64,000 nt of DNA, taken from positions 5,022,001 to 5,086,000 of the forward strand of contig NZ_JAPEOK010000001.1 in the NCBI RefSeq assembly GCF_026341515.1, read 5' to 3'. This document shows positions 6,425 through 49,893 of the stretch, piece after piece (the first letter of the stretch is position 1; the number at the start of each line of letters is the position of its first letter). The notes beneath the pieces were generated by a model. The model had not been told where the DNA came from and searched no databases. It saw nothing but the letters and a program-made list of their open reading frames with translations. The translations under genes and the position numbers were made by a program. This DNA is from Streptomyces sp. NBC_00878 (GTDB lineage Bacteria; Actinomycetota; Actinomycetes; Streptomycetales; Streptomycetaceae).

Positions 6425-7216
6425 CTACTTCGGGTCGCGGTTGAACGAGGCCTTCGACCAGAAGTAGCCCAGCACGGTCAGCGCCAGGGACCAGGCGATC
6501 GCGAGCCAGCCGTTGTGGCCGATCTCGGTGCCGAGCAGCAGGCCTCGCAGGGTCTCGATGGCCGGGGTGAACGGCTGGTACTCGGCGATCGGCTGGAACC
6601 AGCCCGGCATCGCGTCGACCGGGACGAAGGTGCTGGAGATGAGCGGCAGGAAGACCAGCGGCAGCGCGTTGTTGCTGGCCGCCTCGGCGTTCGGGCTGAT
6701 CAAGCCCATCCCGACCGCGATCCAGGTGAGCGCCAGGGCGAACATCGCGAGCAGCCCGAACGCCGCGACCCACTCCAGGGCGGTGGCATCCGTGGACCGG
6801 AACCCGATGGCCACCCCGACGGCCCCGACGAGGACCACGCTCATCACACACTGCAGCACGCTGCCGACGACGTGCCCTATGAGCACCGACCCGCGGTGGA
6901 TCGCCATCGTGCGGAAGCGGGCGATGATGCCCTCGGTCATGTCCATGGAGACGGACACCGCGGTGCCGATCGTGGTGCCGCCGATGGTCATCATCAGGAT
7001 GCCCGGGACGAGATACGCGATGTAGTCGGACCGGTCGCCGCCGCCGTTGCCGATGCCGGCGCTCATCACGTCGCCGAAGACGTAGACGAAGAGCAGGAGC
7101 AGCATGACCGGTGTGAGCAGCAGGTTCAGGGTGAGGGACGGGTAGCGCCGCGCGTGCAGCAGGTTGCGGCGGAGCATCGTGTTCGAGTCGCGCACGGCGA
7201 GGGAGAGGGAGCTCAT
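6425..7216 (-). CDS. ABC-2 type exporter permease, DrrB-like
   Basis: A 263-residue membrane protein with about six hydrophobic segments, and in the middle the ABC-2 signature region MDMTEGIIARFRTMAI. It matches the daunorubicin-resistance DrrB pattern. Its ATG overlaps the stop of the ATPase gene by 4 bases, so the two are translationally coupled and form one exporter. The substrate cannot be told from sequence. Upstream in the same direction are DUF4097 and RHH genes. Confidence 0.88.
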   Translation of the reverse strand: MSSLSLAVRDSNTMLRRNLLHARRYPSLTLNLLLTPVMLLLLFVYVFGDVMSAGIGNGGGDRSDYIAYLVPGILMMTIGGTTIGTAVSVSMDMTEGIIARFRTMAIHRGSVLIGHVVGSVLQCVMSVVLVGAVGVAIGFRSTDATALEWVAAFGLLAMFALALTWIAVGMGLISPNAEAASNNALPLVFLPLISSTFVPVDAMPGWFQPIAEYQPFTPAIETLRGLLLGTEIGHNGWLAIAWSLALTVLGYFWSKASFNRDPK

Positions 7217-8289
7217 CGGACGTCCTCCTTGGACTGGCCGAGCTGGCTGAACTGGCTGAACTGGCCAGGCTGGTTGGGCTGGTTGGGCTGGTTGGGCTGG
7301 TTGGGCTGGTTGGGCACGGTGGTGGTGCCGCCGGTCAGGGCGAAGAACACGTCGTCGAGGTCGGGGGTGTGCACGGTCAGCTCGTCCGCCTCGACACCGG
7401 CCGAGTCCAGCCAGTTGAGGATGGAGCGCAGCTCACGCTGGGTGCCGTCGCTGGGGATGCGCAGCGACAGCGCCTCGTCGTCCCGCGCCGCCTCGCTCAG
7501 CGAGACGGCGGCGCTCTGGTACGCGGCCGGGTCGTCGAACCGCAGCCGCACGTGCCCGCCGGGGACGAGCCGCTTGAGCTCGTCGGCGGTGCCCTCGGCG
7601 GCGATCTTGCCGTCGTTGAGCACGGCGATGCGGTCGGCGAGTTCGTCGGCCTCCTCCAGGTACTGGGTGGTGAGGAAGACGGTGACGCCGTCGGAAACCA
7701 GCTCGCGGATGATCCCCCACATGTTGTGGCGCGAGCGCGGGTCGAGACCGGTGGTCGGCTCGTCGAGGAAGATGATCCGCGGGCTGCCGACCAGCGTCAT
7801 GGCGATGTCCAGACGCCGCTTCATACCGCCGGAGTAGGTGGAGGCGGGCTTCTTGGCGGCGTCGACGAGGTCGAACCGCTCAAGGAGTTCGGCGGCGACG
7901 TGCCGTCCCTCACGCTTGGACAGGTGGTGCAGGTCCGCCATGAGGAGCATGTTCTCCTCGCCGGTGATCAGCCCGTCGACGGCGGAGAACTGCCCGGTGA
8001 CGCCGATCGCGGCACGCACCCCGTCCGGTGACGCGGCGACGTCGTGGCCCGCGACCTGGACCTGCCCGCCGTCGGCGGAGATGAGCGTGGACAGGATCTT
8101 GACGGCGGTGGTCTTGCCCGCGCCGTTCGGCCCGAGCAGCGCGAACACGGACCCGGCCGGGATGCACAGATCGATGCCGTCGAGGACGGTCTTGTCGCCG
8201 TACGACTTGCGCAGACCGATGGCGGAGACGGCGGTCGGCGACGGGTGACCGTCGGTCCGGCTGGACGTGGACATGACAGAAGAAGGCAT
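7213..8289 (-). CDS. ABC exporter ATPase, DrrA-like
   Basis: A 358-residue ATPase. Walker A is GPNGAGKTT, the signature is YSGGMKRRLDIA and Walker B is IIFLDEPTTGLD. A DrrA-type C-terminal domain (residues about 230-320) follows. GGGAGGGCCC precedes the ATG at 8289. Close to the C-terminus there are five tandem Asn-Gln-Pro units followed by Gln/Phe/Ser-rich sequence, an unusual low-complexity tail for this family. The partner permease overlaps the stop codon. Drug or lipid export is the usual role of this family. Confidence 0.9.
   Translation of the reverse strand: MPSSVMSTSSRTDGHPSPTAVSAIGLRKSYGDKTVLDGIDLCIPAGSVFALLGPNGAGKTTAVKILSTLISADGGQVQVAGHDVAASPDGVRAAIGVTGQFSAVDGLITGEENMLLMADLHHLSKREGRHVAAELLERFDLVDAAKKPASTYSGGMKRRLDIAMTLVGSPRIIFLDEPTTGLDPRSRHNMWGIIRELVSDGVTVFLTTQYLEEADELADRIAVLNDGKIAAEGTADELKRLVPGGHVRLRFDDPAAYQSAAVSLSEAARDDEALSLRIPSDGTQRELRSILNWLDSAGVEADELTVHTPDLDDVFFALTGGTTTVPNQPNQPNQPNQPNQPGQFSQFSQLGQSKEDVR
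7271..7315. repeat. 9-bp tandem repeat inside the ATPase gene
   Basis: Five exact copies of TGGTTGGGC encode the (NQP)5 tract on the minus strand. The unit is in frame, so copy-number change would alter tail length only. Confidence 0.9.
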
Positions 8290-8353: not shown

Positions 8354-8396
8354 CTCCGGCCAGGGCCCGGCCTGCGAGGTCGGGCCCTGGCCGGAG
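8354..8396 (-). terminator. Perfect 16-bp hairpin after the DUF4097 gene
   Basis: Arms CTCCGGCCAGGGCCCG (8354-8369) and its complement (8381-8396) are separated by 11 bases. It lies about 90 bases after the DUF4097 stop and before the ATPase gene, so the exporter probably has its own promoter or depends on read-through. Confidence 0.65.
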
Positions 8397-8463
8397 TCAG
8401 GTCCTGCTGGAGTCAGGCCCTGCCGGAGTCAGGCCCTGTTGAAGTCAGGCCCTGTTGGAATTT
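8383..8463. repeat. 16-bp tandem repeat, five copies
   Basis: The units begin at 8383, 8400, 8416, 8432 and 8448, with consensus GGCCCTGYYGGAGTCA. The first copy forms the right arm of the neighbouring hairpin. It is noncoding. Confidence 0.8.
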
Positions 8464-8483: not shown

Positions 8484-9332
8484 TCAGACCTTGGCGCGGC
8501 GGACGTCGATGTTGCCGTACCGGGTGCGGGCGCGGACCTTGACGGCGTCCTCGGTCTTCTCCGGGGCGTCGGACGAGGCGAGGGTGTTGCGCACCTGGCC
8601 GGAGCCCGAGCTGACGTCGAGCCAGGCGGCCGTGCCCTCGCGGACGCCGACCTCGATGGCGCCGTAGGAGGTCTCCAACTGGACGGTGCCGCGGGCCACG
8701 TCGTCCACGCGCAGGGTGCCGTGGGCGGTGGTGGCGGTGACCGAGTCCTCGGCGCGCCGGATCTCGATGTCGCCGTTGGCGCCGCTCACCCGCAGCTCGC
8801 CGGTCGCGGCGCCGACGGTGGTGGTGCCGTGCGAGTTCTTCAGGACGGCGGGGCCGTCGATGAGGCCGACGCGCAGGCTGCCGGAGCTGGTGGTGATCTC
8901 GGCCATGCCCTCGACCCGGTCCACACTGATCGAGCCGTGCGACGCGGTCAGTTGCAGCGGGCCGGTGGTGTCGAGGCGGACATCGCCGGACGAGGTCTTC
9001 ACACGGACCTCGCCGAGCCGGCCCTCGCCGAACACCTGGGCCCAGGCGCCGGTCATGTCGACGCGCGAACCCATGGGGAGTTCGACCGTCACGTCGACGG
9101 TGCCGGTGCGGCCGAGGCCGAACAGATTGGACTTGGGCGTCCTGACGGTCAGTGCGCCGCTCGCGTACGTGACCACGGTCTGATCGACCGCCCGTACGTC
9201 CAGGTCCTTGTTCGGATCGCGGGGGCGCACCTCGACGACGGTGTCGAGGCGGTCGCCCGCGGTGAACTGGATGGATCCGGCCTCCACGTGCGCCGTGACC
9301 GAGATCGCTTCGGGAGTGTCGAAAGAAGGCAT
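8484..9332 (-). CDS. DUF4097-family beta-strand repeat protein
   Basis: A 282-residue protein made of repeating short beta strands with Gly-Ser/Asp turns (SSGDVRLD, SHGSISVD, SSGSLRVG, ANGDIEIR, AHGTLRVD, SYGAIEVG). This is the solenoid pattern of DUF4097, often called putative adhesin. No signal peptide or membrane segment is present, so it is likely cytoplasmic. It follows the RHH gene by 125 bases in the same direction and precedes the DrrAB-like exporter. The biochemical function of the family is not established. Confidence 0.87.
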   Translation of the reverse strand: MPSFDTPEAISVTAHVEAGSIQFTAGDRLDTVVEVRPRDPNKDLDVRAVDQTVVTYASGALTVRTPKSNLFGLGRTGTVDVTVELPMGSRVDMTGAWAQVFGEGRLGEVRVKTSSGDVRLDTTGPLQLTASHGSISVDRVEGMAEITTSSGSLRVGLIDGPAVLKNSHGTTTVGAATGELRVSGANGDIEIRRAEDSVTATTAHGTLRVDDVARGTVQLETSYGAIEVGVREGTAAWLDVSSGSGQVRNTLASSDAPEKTEDAVKVRARTRYGNIDVRRAKV

Positions 9333-9457
9333 GGCTGTCCCGTCCTCTTGGGTCTTCAGGGCGTCCCCGCTGGTGGGACGTGGTGTGGGTGAAGTGGTGT
9401 GAGCTGAGAGGTGGTGTTGGCCGAGAGATGGTGTTGGTCAAGTGCTGCGGGGCACGG

Positions 9458-9982
9458 CTAGCGCACCCAGCCCGTGATGCTCTGTCCGATGGTCGGGATC
9501 TTCTCCGTCGTACGCGGCCGGGTGCCGCCGTCGACCGCGGCCGACACGGCGCGCACCAGCCACGCGTTGACCGACAGGCCCTCGCGGGCCGCGGCCTCCT
9601 CGGCGCGGGCCTTGAGGTGGGCCGGCAGACGCAGGTTGACGCGAGCGGTGCCGCCCTCGTCGCCGTCGGCCGGGGCCGAGGCCGGGGCGCCGAGCGGTTC
9701 GACGGGCGCGGTCGGCTCCGCGGGGGCGCCGCCGTCGCTGGGCGGCAGCGTCACCACAAAGTCGGGGTCGAGCCCGCGCAGCCGTACGTCGACCGAGCCG
9801 GGGGCGAGTTCGCGGGTGATCTCGTCCGTCGCGGCGGAGAGCACGTTGAGCATGGTCAGCCGGGTCGCCGACTCCAGGGGAGCGGTGAGCCTCTCGGCCA
9901 GCTCGCGAGCTTCGTCGCCACCGGCTTCGGCAGCCACCGCGAGTTCGCGGCGGAGGGTTTCGACGTACGGGGTGAGGTCCAT
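9458..9982 (-). CDS. Ribbon-helix-helix (HicB/Arc-like) regulator
   Basis: A 174-residue protein. I start it at the ATG at 9982 (MDLTPYVETLRRELAVAAEA); the longer frame runs through the repeat array. The N-terminal 80 residues are helical and of unknown type, followed by a Pro/Ala-rich linker. Residues about 125-165 form an RHH fold (ARVNLRLPAHLKARAEEAA then REGLSVNAWLVRAVSAAV). No HicA toxin is adjacent, so antitoxin is only a family label. The upstream region carries a phased TGRCRYC repeat array, which fits an RHH protein binding cooperatively to tandem half-sites. It probably regulates itself and DUF4097. Confidence 0.8.
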   Translation of the reverse strand: MDLTPYVETLRRELAVAAEAGGDEARELAERLTAPLESATRLTMLNVLSAATDEITRELAPGSVDVRLRGLDPDFVVTLPPSDGGAPAEPTAPVEPLGAPASAPADGDEGGTARVNLRLPAHLKARAEEAAAREGLSVNAWLVRAVSAAVDGGTRPRTTEKIPTIGQSITGWVR

Positions 9983-10262
9983 GACGCCATGATGGCACCA
10001 CATTGGCTCAGCACGCAAGCCGCAAGGTGACACCACTGGGACTGAGCCCGATGAAAACGACCTGACCTGCAAAAACATGATGGCGTCTACCTGAGCAACC
10101 ATGGCGCCACGCGCGCTCACCCACTCTCAGGAGCGCGATATGGCGTCGCAGTAGCGCGATATGGCATCGAATGGCACCCGAATGACACCCTGGTGGCACC
10201 GCGCGACACTGGATGGCGCCAGATGACGCCAGGCGGCGCCGCCCGACGCCATGGTGACGCCA
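9981..10262. promoter_or_regulatory. Helically phased operator-like repeat array
   Basis: At least 15 copies of an RTGRCRYC motif (ATGGCGCCA, ATGACGCCA, ATGGCACCC, ATGACACCC) fill this noncoding stretch. From 10161 onwards the copies start at 10161, 10171, 10182, 10193, 10204, 10213, 10223, 10233, 10243 and 10254, a mean spacing of about 10.3 bases. Further copies lie at 10140, 10101, 10080, 10027, 9992 and 9981. All have the same orientation. The spacing is not a multiple of three, so a coding origin is unlikely. Confidence 0.75.
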
Positions 10263-10288
10263 GAGCCGAGGCGCACCGCCGCCGCGAA

Positions 10289-11029
10289 CTACGCGCCGCG
10301 GTGCTGGTAGAGGCAGGTGTACAACAGCTCGTCCTCCCAGCCGCCCACCTCGGCGAAGGTGAGCAGGGCAGCCCGCGCGGGCACCTCACACGTCGGCGCC
10401 TCGGTGGAGAAGGGAGGCTGCTGCCCCGTCGGGTCGACCGGCAGCATGTCCTGGCACTGGTAGCCCGCCGCGTTCATGAGCAGGATCGCCTCGCGCTCCG
10501 GACCGGAGTAGCCGCCCGTGTAGACCAGGCAGTACGAAGCGCCCGGGTCGCCGCCCGTCTGGGGCGTCTGAATGACACGGACCTGCTCCAGCACGGGCCG
10601 CGGTTCCTGCCATACCGACTCCGCGGGGACCGGCGCCTCGGCCACGTGCGGCGGGCTCGGCGACGGCGTGGGCGGGGCGGAAGAAGCCGGTGCCTTCCTC
10701 ATGGCGGGAGGTTCGGGGGTCGCGGCGGCCGCACGCGCGGCCGGAGACGTCGGCTGTGCGGCCGACTCCGGGCCATGATCGGCCAGAACGAACGCCCCGA
10801 CACCGGCCAGCCCGCCAATGACACCCGCGACCGGGATCACGAGGGCGAGCAGCGGGAGGCGGGGCCGGACCCGACCGCGTACTACCGCCGCGGCGACCGG
10901 TCCGGCCGGACCGGCAAGTGCGACCGGACCGGCCGGGCGCACGACAGGGATGTCGTCGAGGGTGTCACCGTTGTGGAAACGGCGAAGCTCCTCGCTGAGA
11001 TGCGGTGGACGGTGCGGCTTGTCGCTCAT
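10289..11029 (-). CDS. Single-pass membrane-anchored protein of unknown function
   Basis: A 246-residue protein. The start is the ATG at 11029, preceded by GGGGGAGCC. A cytoplasmic N-terminus (MSDKPHRPPHLSEELRRFHNG) leads to one transmembrane segment near residues 60-85, then a Pro/Ala/Thr-rich extracellular linker, and a C-terminal domain of about 100 residues with four cysteines (SYCLVYTGG, YQCQDM, TCEVPARA, LYTCLYQ) that could form two disulfides. I do not recognise the family. It is upstream of the RHH gene but separated from it by the repeat array. Confidence 0.72.
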   Translation of the reverse strand: MSDKPHRPPHLSEELRRFHNGDTLDDIPVVRPAGPVALAGPAGPVAAAVVRGRVRPRLPLLALVIPVAGVIGGLAGVGAFVLADHGPESAAQPTSPAARAAAATPEPPAMRKAPASSAPPTPSPSPPHVAEAPVPAESVWQEPRPVLEQVRVIQTPQTGGDPGASYCLVYTGGYSGPEREAILLMNAAGYQCQDMLPVDPTGQQPPFSTEAPTCEVPARAALLTFAEVGGWEDELLYTCLYQHRGA

Positions 11030-11287
11030 GGCTCCCCCTGGCGGTGCGACGCGCGGTGCGCGAGGGAGGGAAGTCTTCCGCGACTTTGCGGTCGTTGTGG
11101 GCGCTATGAGCAACTGTCACCGCTCCGTGCACATCCTCGCGGCAACGGTGGACGCCTGGGCCACCAGGAGGCGGACGATCATCGTCTGGCCCGCTTCATC
11201 CCGTACCGCCGGCGTGACGATCCGGCACATGGACAGCGACGGGCCGGCCGCGCCGGCCACAGACCGCATCCAGCCCGTCCGGCCGGG
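11030..11287. other. Spacer without a supported gene
   Basis: No frame here has a ribosome binding site or recognisable motif. It marks the left edge of the decayed accessory region. Confidence 0.5.
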
Positions 11288-11480
11288 TCAGTGGAGCGCG
11301 TCGATGGCTTTCACGATCAGGGCGCGGGCGTCGGCTCCGTACACGGCCATGCTGCGCAGCTTCTCGAACGCCCTCAGGTACACGGCAATCTCGCTGGGCT
11401 GAGTGATCTTCACCCGGGCGGATACGAGTTCAACCGCCACCATGCGGTCGTCGGAGACATGGAACGTCCCAACCCCACCA
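11288..11480 (-). pseudogene. C-terminal fragment of an Scr1-type (DUF5753) regulator
   Basis: The last 60 or so codons read VKITQPSEIAVYLRAFEKL, then SMAVYGADARALIVKAIDAL. They align with the C-termini of the regulators at 20077 and 31839 (LYLRAFARLADLAVYGADARALVVKAIDGL in the latter, in sections). The HTH and the rest are missing. It is a remnant of a third copy of that gene family in the window. Confidence 0.75.
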
Positions 11481-11586
11481 CCCTGATTTCGTGAGGTGAC
11501 TCGGACCAAGGGATCCCGCGCGCCGCGACGAGTTCTGCGGTGTCCGGCGGTCGTACTGTTGAACCCGCTACCGAGGAGAACTCCCG

Positions 11587-12150
11587 ATGCGCAGCGTGAC
11601 CTATTCGATGAGCGTCTCGCTTGACGGCTACATCGTCGGGCCGGACGGCAGTTTCGACTGGTCGGTGCCCGACGAGGAGGTCTTTCGCTTCTGGATCGAG
11701 GAGATTCGCGGGGTAGGCGTCCACCTGTTGGGACGACGGCTGTACGAGACGATGCTGTACTGGGAAACGGCCGACCAGGATCCATCGCTCGACGACTCAA
11801 AGCTCGAGTGGATCGCGCTCTGGAACCCGCTGCCCAAGGTGGTGTTCTCCACCACTCTGCCGGAGGTGCAGGGCAATGCCCGGCCGGCCTTCGGCGGCCT
11901 GGCGGAGGAGATCGAGCGGTTGCGGGCCGGGCTGGGGGAGGGCGACATCGCGATCGGCGGCGCGACTCTCGCCGCCGAGGCGGCCGCGCTGGATCTGATC
12001 GACGAGTACCAGACCATGGTCTACCCGGTGCTGGTCGGTGGCGGCATCCCGTACTTTCCCCGGCGCGAGCGCCAGGTGGATCTCGAACTCGTCGAGACCC
12101 GCACCTTCAACTCGAAAGTCGTCCACCAGCGCTACCGCGTGACTCGCTAG
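11587..12150 (+). CDS. Dihydrofolate-reductase-family (RibD C-terminal-like) protein
   Basis: A 187-residue single-domain protein. It opens with YSMSVSLDGYIVGPDGSFDW, has the loop LLGRRLYETMLYW near residue 50, and ends with IGGATLAAEAAALDLIDEY and VLVGGGIPYFP. These are hallmarks of the stand-alone RibD-C/DHFR-like family common in Streptomyces, predicted to be NADPH-dependent reductases of unknown substrate. CGAGGAGAACTCCCG precedes the ATG. It is monocistronic. It is unrelated in arrangement to the RibD-like fusion at 3790. Confidence 0.88.
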   Translation: MRSVTYSMSVSLDGYIVGPDGSFDWSVPDEEVFRFWIEEIRGVGVHLLGRRLYETMLYWETADQDPSLDDSKLEWIALWNPLPKVVFSTTLPEVQGNARPAFGGLAEEIERLRAGLGEGDIAIGGATLAAEAAALDLIDEYQTMVYPVLVGGGIPYFPRRERQVDLELVETRTFNSKVVHQRYRVTR

Positions 12151-47601: not shown

Positions 47602-49893
47602 TCAGCCGTTGCGCTTCCAGCGCGGCTTGTCGTCACGGCGGCCGAAGGACGGGCCCGAGCCGGAACCGGCGCCGCGGTGGTCGTCACGACGGCCGTACGG
47701 GCGGTCGTGGCCGCCGGCACGGAAGCCGCCGCCCGCGGGGCGGTCGCCCTGGCGGTCACGGTTGAACGGACGGTCGCTGCCCCGGTGACCGGCGGGACGG
47801 TCGTCGCGGCGGAAGCCACCACGGTCACCGCCACGGTCGCCACCGGAGGGACGCTCGTCACGACGGTCACGGTTGAAACCGCCACCCGAGGGGCGGTCGT
47901 CGCGGCGGAAGCCGCCACGGTCACCGCCGCGGTCGCCACCCCGGTCGTCACGACGGTCGTCGCGGCGGAAGCCACCCGACGGACGGTCGTCACGGCGGAA
48001 CCCGCCACGGTCACCACCGGAAGGACGCTCATCGCGACGGTCACGGTTGAAACCGCCCGACGGACGGTCATCGCGACGGTCACGGTTGAAGCCACCCGAC
48101 GGACGGTCGTCACGGCGGAAACCGCCACGGTCGCCACCGGAAGGACGCTCGTCACGACGGTCACGGTTGAAGCCACCCGACGGACGGTCATCGCGACGGA
48201 AACCACCACGGTCACCACCCGAGGGACGCTCGTCACGACGGTCACGGTTGAAACCGCCCGACGGACGGTCGTCACGACGGTCACGGCGCTCGTAGTTGCC
48301 GCGCTCGTCACGACGCTGACGCGGCTGCTCCTCGCGCACGGCCGCCGCGGCTTCCGCCGCCACCGCCTGCTCGGCCACGGCGGCCGCTGCCGCCTCGACC
48401 ACGGCGGCGGCCTCGGCGAGCGCGGCCTCCGGGTCCTCGCCGCGCTCACGAGCGGCACGGGCGATCAGCCGGTCCGACTCCTCGCGCAGCTCGGTCGCAC
48501 GCCGCTGCGCGCGCTCCAGCTGCTTGGTGAGGTCGGTGACCTCGCGCTCGGCCTGCTGCGCCGCGTTGCCCGCGGACTCGGCCTGGACCTCGGTCATCGA
48601 CCGGGCACCGGTGATGTCGGCGACCTCCGGGTCGAAGGTCGTACCGCCCTGGATGATGTGGCGCGAGGCGTCGACGCCCGCGTCCTCCATCAGCCGGAAG
48701 ATCTGGCGGCGCTGGTGCGGCAGGGAGAGCGAGACGACCGTGCCGGAGCGGCCCGCGCGGGCCGTACGGCCGGAGCGGTGCAGGTAGTCCTTGTGGTCAC
48801 CGGCCGGGTCCACGTTCAGGACCAGGTCGATGCCGTCGACGTGGATACCGCGGGCGGCGACGTCGGTCGCGACGAGCGCGTTGACGTAGCCCTTCTTGAA
48901 GTCCTCAAGCACGCGGGTACGCGCGCCCTGCGTCATACCGCCGTGGAGCGCGTCGGCCTTCACACCGGAGTCGCAGAGCTGCTCGGCGATACGGTCGGCG
49001 CCCAGCTGGGTGCGTACGAAGATGATCGTGCGGCCCTTGCGGGAGGCGATCGCGGCGGTGACCGGCGCCTTGTCCTTGGGCTTCACGATGAGGATGTGGT
49101 GCGACATGGTCGTGACGTTGCCCTGGGCGCTGTCGACCTCGTGCGTGACGGGGTTGCTCAGGTAGCGCTTGACCAGCGTGGAGATCTCGTTCTCCATGGT
49201 GGCCGAGAACAGCATGCGCTGGCCGCCGCCCGGGATCTGGTCGAGCAGTTCGGTGACCTCGGGCAGGAAGCCCAGGTCGGACATCTGGTCGGCCTCGTCG
49301 AGGACGGCCACCTGGACGTTCTCCAGGGAGCAGGCGCCGCGGTTGATGATGTCGCGCAGCCGGCCCGGGGTGGCGACGAGGACGTCGACGCCGCGCTCCA
49401 GGGCGTAGATCTGGTTGCCCATCGACGTACCGCCGCAGACGACCTTCATCTTCAGGCCGAGCACGTCGCCGTACGGCTGGAGGGCGTCCGCGACCTGCAT
49501 CGCGAGCTCACGCGTCGGCGTGAGGATGATGCCGCGGGGCTTCTTCTTCTCGGTGTGGCCGCCGGAGAGCTGCGTCAGCAGCGGCAGGCCGAACGAGAGG
49601 GTCTTGCCGGAGCCGGTGCGGCCACGGCCGAGGATGTCCTTGCCTGCCAGGGCGTCCGGGATGGTCGCGGCCTGGATCGGGAAGGGGGCGGTCACGCCGT
49701 TCTGCGCGAGCTTGCGCACGACGCCCTCGGGCAGACCGAGGTCGCCGAAGGTGACCTCGGGGGCCGCGGGAGCGGCGGTCTCGTCGACAGAGTCGATGGC
49801 CTCGATGGTGTCGACACCATCGACCACATCGGCAACGTCCCCGATGTTCTCGTTCTCGGGCACGACGACGTGATCAGTACTGGAAATGGACAT
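47602..49893 (-). CDS. DEAD-box RNA helicase with long RDG-rich tail
   Basis: A 763-residue helicase. After an acidic N-terminus (residues 1-48) the motifs appear in order: Q (PFPIQAATIPDAL), I (GRTGSGKT), Ia (PTRELA), Ib (TPGR), II (DEAD), III (SAT), IV (IIFVRT), V (ATDVAARGIHV) and VI (HRSGRTARAG). A coiled coil (residues about 470-540) precedes about 230 residues of Arg/Asp/Gly/Pro/Ser repeats built from units such as FRRDDRPSGGFNRDRRDERP. The repeat tail is basic, disordered and likely RNA-binding; phase separation is plausible by analogy. Role in ribosome assembly or RNA turnover is typical. Confidence 0.92.
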   Translation of the reverse strand: MSISSTDHVVVPENENIGDVADVVDGVDTIEAIDSVDETAAPAAPEVTFGDLGLPEGVVRKLAQNGVTAPFPIQAATIPDALAGKDILGRGRTGSGKTLSFGLPLLTQLSGGHTEKKKPRGIILTPTRELAMQVADALQPYGDVLGLKMKVVCGGTSMGNQIYALERGVDVLVATPGRLRDIINRGACSLENVQVAVLDEADQMSDLGFLPEVTELLDQIPGGGQRMLFSATMENEISTLVKRYLSNPVTHEVDSAQGNVTTMSHHILIVKPKDKAPVTAAIASRKGRTIIFVRTQLGADRIAEQLCDSGVKADALHGGMTQGARTRVLEDFKKGYVNALVATDVAARGIHVDGIDLVLNVDPAGDHKDYLHRSGRTARAGRSGTVVSLSLPHQRRQIFRLMEDAGVDASRHIIQGGTTFDPEVADITGARSMTEVQAESAGNAAQQAEREVTDLTKQLERAQRRATELREESDRLIARAARERGEDPEAALAEAAAVVEAAAAAVAEQAVAAEAAAAVREEQPRQRRDERGNYERRDRRDDRPSGGFNRDRRDERPSGGDRGGFRRDDRPSGGFNRDRRDERPSGGDRGGFRRDDRPSGGFNRDRRDDRPSGGFNRDRRDERPSGGDRGGFRRDDRPSGGFRRDDRRDDRGGDRGGDRGGFRRDDRPSGGGFNRDRRDERPSGGDRGGDRGGFRRDDRPAGHRGSDRPFNRDRQGDRPAGGGFRAGGHDRPYGRRDDHRGAGSGSGPSFGRRDDKPRWKRNG

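Follow-up and report, generated by a model that had tools for sequence, protein, structure and literature searches.

Gene organization of the locus

The window, i.e., the whole stretch of 64,000 nucleotides analyzed here, comprises positions 5022001-5086000 of the 10.2-Mb chromosome of Streptomyces sp. NBC_00878. Its minus strand carries an operon in which a gene for a ribbon-helix-helix (RHH) protein is followed by genes for a DUF4097 protein, a DrrA-type ATPase, and an ABC-2 permease. These genes and the reading frame upstream of the repeats described below are as follows:

9458..9982, minus strand, RHH regulator gene, 174 amino acids (translation; ATG at 9982-9980)
8484..9332, minus strand, DUF4097 (Toastrack) gene, second in the operon, 282 amino acids (Pfam PF13349, 48.9 bits)
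7213..8289, minus strand, DrrA-type ABC ATPase gene (TIGR01188, 317.7 bits at a cut-off of 312.45)
6425..7216, minus strand, ABC-2 permease gene, DrrB-like (PF01061; the DrrB models match below their cut-offs)
10289-11113, minus strand, 274-amino-acid ORF upstream of the repeats (without Pfam or NCBIfam match)

In all 110 loci compared, the RHH gene had a DUF4097 gene as its neighbor, and a DrrA-type ATPase gene was matched in 101 of them, some of the loci being incomplete. A relative of the upstream 274-amino-acid ORF was found around the RHH gene at the window's own locus alone (1/110). Tandem repeats occur at three places in the operon: between the DUF4097 and DrrA-type genes, a 16-bp repeat (GTCAGGCCCTGCTGGA) is present five times at 8379-8459; between the RHH and DUF4097 genes, 9395-9437 holds a 17-bp repeat in 2.5 copies; and 7268-7315 is a perfect 9-bp tandem repeat that is translated into a Pro-Asn-Gln repeat near the C terminus of the DrrA-type ATPase.

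The RHH protein consists of a helical N-terminal part, a C-terminal ribbon-helix-helix at about residues 112 to 151, and a conserved tail. As is characteristic of the RHH superfamily, a ribbon followed by two helices spans about 45 residues, and the ribbon shows alternating polar residues in its sequence, which are predicted to read bases. Three of these residues, R114, N116, and R118, were invariant across 29 aligned rows. The AF2 model of the protein was of low confidence (mean pLDDT of 57), and VIA-align matches for the N-terminal part were weak and mixed. Most PDB sequence matches were to TAL effectors, whose kinship was rejected as a composition artefact of Ala/Leu-rich repeats.

The protein matched the Pfam model HicB (PF05534) with 23.9 bits at a cut-off of 21. 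Its named orthologs are up to 92% identical, and the database names for the orthologs are "toxin-antitoxin system HicB family antitoxin," hypothetical protein, or histidine kinase. The Pfam match and the first of these names would fit a HicAB-type type II toxin-antitoxin locus with the repeats as the operator of the antitoxin. We see next to no likelihood of this, as the partner is the 282-amino-acid DUF4097 protein, invariably adjacent and followed by a transporter, and no HicA match was obtained among the six window proteins scanned with Pfam.

Repeats upstream of the RHH gene

Between the RHH gene and the ORF ending at 10289, 15 sites with the motif GRCRYC are located within 9983-10261. A reading of this DNA made from its letters alone (the sequence-only reading) had reported about 15 copies of TGRCRYC; the count is right for GRCRYC, but the literal TGRCRYC is present only 13 times, with plus-strand starts at 9982, 9993, 10028, 10081, 10102, 10141, 10162, 10172, 10183, 10194, 10214, 10224, and 10255. 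At 10234 and 10244, CG replaces TG and the sites still read GRCRYC. The repeats and a further conserved element are arranged as follows, positions with a minus sign being relative to the RHH start codon:

10163..10261, minus strand, distal array of ten units 10 to 11 bp apart (motif search)
10142..10147, minus strand, isolated site, 21 bp off the distal array (motif search)
10103..10108, minus strand, single site near -126, GGCGCC (motif search, ortholog positions)
10082..10087, minus strand, single site near -105 (motif search, ortholog positions)
10062..10075, minus strand, conserved element TTTTTGCAGGTCAG at about -93 to -80 (ortholog column conservation)
10029..10034, minus strand, single site near -50 (motif search, ortholog positions)
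10005..10010, minus strand, proximal site at -28, degenerate in the window (TGAGCC; column conservation)
9994..9999, minus strand, proximal site at -17, GGTGCC (motif search, column conservation)
9983..9988, minus strand, proximal site at -6, GGCGTC on the gene strand (motif search, column conservation)

The hexamers of the distal array start at 10163, 10173, 10184, 10195, 10205, 10215, 10225, 10235, 10245, and 10256. Nine of them match GRCRYC and one is degenerate (CGACACT at 10204), and the mean step is 10.3. The ten sites previously placed in 10161-10262 with a mean spacing of about 10.3 are thus obtained if the degenerate site is counted; the range of 9 to 11 bases given for the spacing has to be narrowed, because the steps are 10 or 11 only. 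At the other end of the region, the -6 site touches the start codon (9980-9982), so that the operator extends to the RHH gene itself. The -28 site, degenerate here, is of the GGCGCC type in most of the 80 Streptomyces orthologs described below.

In 9983-10288, the longest exact chain of GRCRYC sites placed 10 or 11 bp apart comprised five sites, compared to a maximum of two in 5000 dinucleotide shuffles. When both strands of the 64 kb were searched in 306-bp windows, a chain of five was present at this place alone; the minus-strand windows containing such a chain share the coordinates of the plus-strand array. An Rfam scan of 9000-11600 gave no family reaching its gathering score. A long repeat array with periods of 39, 81, 90, and 120 is located elsewhere in the window, at 47795-48286.

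Conservation of the distal array and the proximal triplet

The best 80 of 353 relatives served as the ortholog set, of which 79 with 400 bp of upstream sequence were combined with the window to give 80 promoters; one locus (L018) was too short and was left out of the 400-bp analyses. In these promoters, same-strand GGYGYC sites were most often separated by 10 bp (129 times), 11 bp (85), 20 bp (85), and 22 bp (64), whereas one occurrence or fewer was expected for each of these distances in shuffled promoters. The sites were positioned at -6, -17, -28, about -50, -105, and -127, and then every 10 bp outward from -166. The hexamers in phase were GGCGCC (188), GGTGCC (151), GGCACC (82), GGCGTC (73), and rarer ones, including GGTACC once, which indicates that a unit mostly consists of two half-sites GGC or GGT placed face to face. 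An element resembling TTTCCGCAGGTCAG was kept at about -93 to -80 in the 80 Streptomyces orthologs, between the distal and the proximal module.

When a broad set of 36 hexamers was used for counting, the promoters differed in their longest distal run, which ranged from 0 to 15 units; it was 0 in 4 of the 80 promoters and 3 to 6 in 62. Its downstream end was at a median of -166 (25th to 75th percentile, -170 to -165) and stayed there while the sequence around the array diverged. We also scored phased pairs of sites in the window plus all of the best 80 of 353 relatives (81 loci), using control windows placed further upstream. A phased pair was present within the last 40 bp in 78/81 loci versus 10/2202 control windows and within the 250-bp distal zone in 77/81 loci versus 11/313 control windows. 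A second group of 22 loci (L090-L111), some of which are strains already among the 81 loci, had a pair in the last 40 bp in 16/22 cases versus 2/612 controls and in the distal zone in 18/22; for family f3, the numbers were 7/7 versus 1/173 controls and 3/7, respectively. The motif and its 10-bp spacing, on whose conservation upstream of orthologs the sequence-only reading had staked its proposal, are therefore conserved, as judged from the distances in the 80 promoters and the phased pairs in 78/81 loci. The same reading had spoken of one operator array. The array is real, but a second module accompanies it, the proximal triplet with its 11-bp step, which is the more widely kept of the two. 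A placement of both modules on one face of the DNA was considered and dropped, because the best-fitting period varies with the module pair chosen.

A profile search with 29 orthologs detected the RHH family in 101 of 296 genomes and 38 of 114 genera of the class Actinomycetes. For the class-wide comparison, 60 upstream stretches were combined with 13 of the 14 loci L183-L196 (n = 73), L189 being dropped since the reading frame at its assumed start was wrong. Full GRY-RYC sites at -28, -17, and -6 were found three times in 43/73 and twice in 26/73, i.e., at least two sites in 69/73. At six upstream control positions, the same triplet test gave two sites in at most 2/72 and three in none. Distal chains of at least three units occurred in only 3/70 class-wide loci outside the window's family. 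As the triplet is kept throughout the class and the array is mostly confined to the window's family, the triplet looks old, and the distal array looks like mainly a Streptomyces elaboration. Its absence from 4/80 promoters and its rarity outside the window's family show that the array is not required everywhere.

The variable unit number and the patchy distribution might also mean that the distal array is a functionless by-product of unit duplication by slippage and that the proximal triplet is the sole operator. In line with this, adjacent linkers within the array were identical in 23/205 pairs versus 4% between species, and in two loci (L023 and L046) three identical 10-mers follow one another consecutively, so slippage does contribute to array growth. 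In the other 182/205 pairs, however, the linkers differ while the core and the 10-bp step stay, the array ends near -166 despite diverging surroundings, and phased pairs are far commoner in the distal zone than in the control windows. We consider a functionless array rather unlikely. The previous argument against simple slippage applies to most of the linkers and has to be amended for the identical ones.

Putative leaderless promoter

Column conservation in the ortholog alignment pointed to two promoter elements:

10013..10018, minus strand, inferred -35 element TTGCGT (column conservation)
9989..9994, minus strand, inferred -10 element CATCAT, consensus CATGAT (column conservation)

In columns anchored on the ATG, the letters TTGC at -36 to -33 were present in 79, 78, 77, and 77 of 80 rows, and CATGAT at -12 to -7 was followed by the ATG. 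Shine-Dalgarno-like 4-mers preceded the start codon in 1 of the 73 class-wide orthologs, compared to a mean of 7.8 for upstream windows. From the TTGC and CATGAT columns and the near-absence of Shine-Dalgarno-like 4-mers we infer a leaderless transcript whose first nucleotide is the A of the ATG or close to it. Together, the -28, -17, and -6 sites span this putative promoter from its spacer across the -10 element to the start, a location that suits a repressor. As in RHH autorepressors with tandem operators, tandem sites thus lie over the gene's own promoter, which was predicted from the sequence.

Covariation of residue 116 and the putative operator half-sites

All Streptomyces and family f3 rows carried an R-x-N-x-R ribbon, as did f22, f40, and some members of f20 and f48; the other rows had R-x-T-x-R or R-x-S-x-R. 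We compared residue 116 with the half-sites at the three proximal positions of 98 loci. The site at each position was picked from three shifts by its fit to GRY-RYC, which does not favor GG over GA; L189 and L103 were left out, and sites under 5 of 6 were dropped, so that one locus (L250) was uncountable. The ratio of GG to GA half-sites was 166:28 for Asn116 and 85:255 for Thr/Ser116, corresponding to an odds ratio of 17.8, with a Fisher p-value that treats related sequences as independent and is no gauge of strength. Counted by locus, Asn116 went with a GG majority in 36 cases, a GA majority in none, and a tie in one, and Thr/Ser116 with a GA majority in 47, a GG majority in one, and ties in 12 (8 of them Ser rows), besides the uncountable locus. 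The most common site of T116 proteins was GACGTC.

For a quick tree, the alignment columns around residues 113-119 were removed beforehand. On the best tree, residue 116 changes four times and the operator class five times, and in every Asn group all Asn rows have a GG majority except for one tie. The best tree contains four independent pairs, one of them on well-supported branches; only the latter was scored, with agreement in nearly every one of 200 random pairings. The link between residue 116 and the half-sites is strong in size and direction, and shared ancestry could explain part of it. Among all observations, this covariation is the strongest sign suggesting that the RHH protein reads the sites.

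Proposed autorepression of the operon

We consider it very probable that the RHH protein has its operator in the repeats, that dimers bound to the proximal triplet repress the protein's own operon, and that the distal array serves as a loading platform. Autoregulation of the RHH-DUF4097-DrrAB operon, as put forward by the sequence-only reading, is the best reading of the conservation and the residue-116 covariation. The cooperative, filament-like complex that it also put forward stays at the level of a hypothesis. Each RHH dimer would recognize one near-palindromic GRYRYC unit by means of a two-stranded ribbon placed in the major groove, and with units one turn apart, adjacent dimers would be aligned on one face of the DNA. 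Dimers on the -28, -17, and -6 sites would cover the promoter and switch off the leaderless RHH-DUF4097-DrrA-DrrB operon. In Streptomyces, the distal array would provide an extra loading platform that most likely aids the proximal sites, possibly through cooperative binding, through wrapping of the DNA, or through a loop across the spacer of roughly 130 bp; it may increase the local density of dimers and clasp the spacer. Repression might be lifted by a signal that possibly acts via the transporter or the Toastrack protein.

MetJ belongs to the RHH proteins, and its Thr25 contacts an adenine of the met-box core, and Arc carries an asparagine at the matching ribbon position. MetJ of the gamma-proteobacteria responds to S-adenosylmethionine, and its met boxes follow one another with a step of 8 bp, whereas the units described here are 10 to 11 bp apart and the triplet lies on a putative leaderless promoter; no sequence kinship between MetJ and the RHH protein was shown. 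The met box has the consensus AGACGTCT and is bound by the repressor MetJ in tandem repeats (PMC4239095); the T116-type site GACGTC equals its core. Likewise, dimers of omega (ParB) of plasmid pSM19035 are described in PMC9499535 as binding 7 to 10 consecutive repeats of mixed orientation over promoters including their own, a stable complex with ParA requiring at least four contiguous repeats. Omega resembles the RHH protein studied here in that RHH dimers occupy tandem repeats over their own promoter, but it acts in plasmid partition with ParA on 7-bp WATCACW heptads, in contrast to 10- to 11-bp units at a chromosomal Toastrack/ABC operon.

ParR is similar in site geometry, which here fits 10-bp iterons. 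According to PMC5016525, its RHH dimers bind 10-bp repeats, and some plasmids carry a split parC array around a promoter, which is looped out and repressed in a wrapped complex. This raises the alternative of a type II partition (ParR/parC-like) centromere with its iterons split around the promoter; a comparable wrapped complex might form at the present locus. Such a centromere is highly improbable here, since the operon contains no ParM-like, actin-like motor gene and encodes a DUF4097 protein, an ABC ATPase, and an ABC-2 permease, and the operator also precedes P450, GtrA-like, and DrrA-type genes, i.e., metabolic and membrane genes (see below). Another difference from ParR/parC is the array length, which varies from 0 to 15 units among species. 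A variable number of direct repeats at Streptomyces promoters is also known for BldC, which forms cooperative oligomers on them according to PMC5859096; BldC differs in having a MerR-like winged helix and AATT-type repeats, whereas the present regulator is an RHH protein.

An operon of Toastrack, ABC ATPase, permease, and RHH factor was derived from comparative genomics for Actinobacteria and linked to envelope stress, as stated in the available text of PMC11237479, and it most likely represents the operon type studied here. In that text, no operator, leaderless promoter, covariation, or further target is mentioned. A literature search with subscription papers and preprints mostly outside its range gave no description of this operator. 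The arrangement had been taken as undescribed, which holds for the operator, but an operon of this kind with an RHH factor is in print. Repressors of the RHH type with tandem operators were already known; what is new is a triple operator kept class-wide on a leaderless-type promoter, the link between residue 116 and the half-sites, the variable Streptomyces array, and the further target genes. A regulator now named antitoxin, hypothetical protein, or histidine kinase would thereby gain both a function and an operator that can be read, and, because of the reported link of the operon to envelope stress, a handle on its regulon would be obtained. The switch at residue 116 would offer a recognition code for RHH ribbons that is simple and testable, and the species, with their arrays of 0 to 15 units, form a natural series relating repeat number to cooperativity.

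Putative operators upstream of other genes

Of 392 genomes in the genus, 205 matched the strict proximal pattern when up to three mismatches were allowed, and no row matched the reversed pattern. Within a set of 61 genomes, the pattern was found in 19, all of them among the 36 with an RHH match, and in 0/25 without one. The 21 places concerned were 18 RHH starts, one reverse reading of such a start, and two located elsewhere. Seventeen of these 36 RHH-positive genomes lacked the strict pattern; 11 of these carry divergent sites, one has a weak, partial RHH match, and a looser pattern catches one of the other five.

In the window's own genome, strict pattern searches gave no second operator, and an operator site was not found at its GtrA homolog. 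Looser pair patterns were no more common there than the reversed controls (10 versus 15 and 5 versus 11 places). A triple pattern occurred at 13 places versus 5 for the reversed one, four of the 13 belonging to the window array and four to two other 10-bp repeats. Two places with at least three phased GGYGYC sites (C1:6647375 and C1:6856359) were rejected as operators, as they look like simple 10-bp tandem repeats and unlike this promoter.

Twelve stretches were chosen from the matches listed because the letters after the pattern were not MDLTP-like or because they lay near such places, with G235:C38 left out. Among the matches listed, these stretches contained 11 operators before other genes. 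Four precede DUF4097 genes (L153, L154, L156, and L157) and two precede genes for DrrA-type ATPases (L159 and L161). Two P450 genes were identified, one by Pfam (L160) and the other by 54% identity to it (L163). The remaining three operators are located before GtrA-like genes, of which L162 scored above and L158 below the Pfam cut-off, and L164 had no Pfam match but shared 60% identity with L158 across 129 positions. Four more operators among the matches listed precede RHH-type genes, one with an RHH domain (L157), one incomplete (L155), and two with the N-terminal part only. The two P450 genes (L163:3989, plus strand, and L160:3244, minus strand) belong to different genomes; in one of them the ATG coincides exactly with the position of the RHH start, and in the other it follows about 55 bp downstream, after an RBS-like stretch.

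Operators before genes without an adjacent RHH gene would also be expected if an unlinked regulator bound the repeats and the RHH gene were merely one of its targets. This is quite unlikely, because the half-site letters track residue 116 of the linked RHH protein, the proximal pattern was missing from all 25 genomes without an RHH match, and the eight genomes whose other operators were retrieved also have the RHH gene, or its operator together with an MDLTP start. Binding by the linked RHH protein is thus the preferred reading. Beyond it, we tentatively entertain the possibility of an ancient actinomycete RHH repressor family with a one-residue code (Asn116 for GG, Thr/Ser116 for GA) and a leaderless triple operator, to which a chromosomal parC-like array of up to 15 units, wrapping or looping the promoter, would have been added in Streptomyces as a cooperative nucleoprotein switch and which may have been recruited to P450, GtrA-like, and transporter genes.

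In two Streptomyces loci (L155 at about 15893 and L157 at about 17474, both minus strand), the gene after the operator encodes the N-terminal part of the RHH protein joined to a stretch that, judged by eye, is similar to the C-terminal domain of DrrA. The joined genes contain neither an RHH nor an ATPase domain and could be deletion remnants or real fusions.
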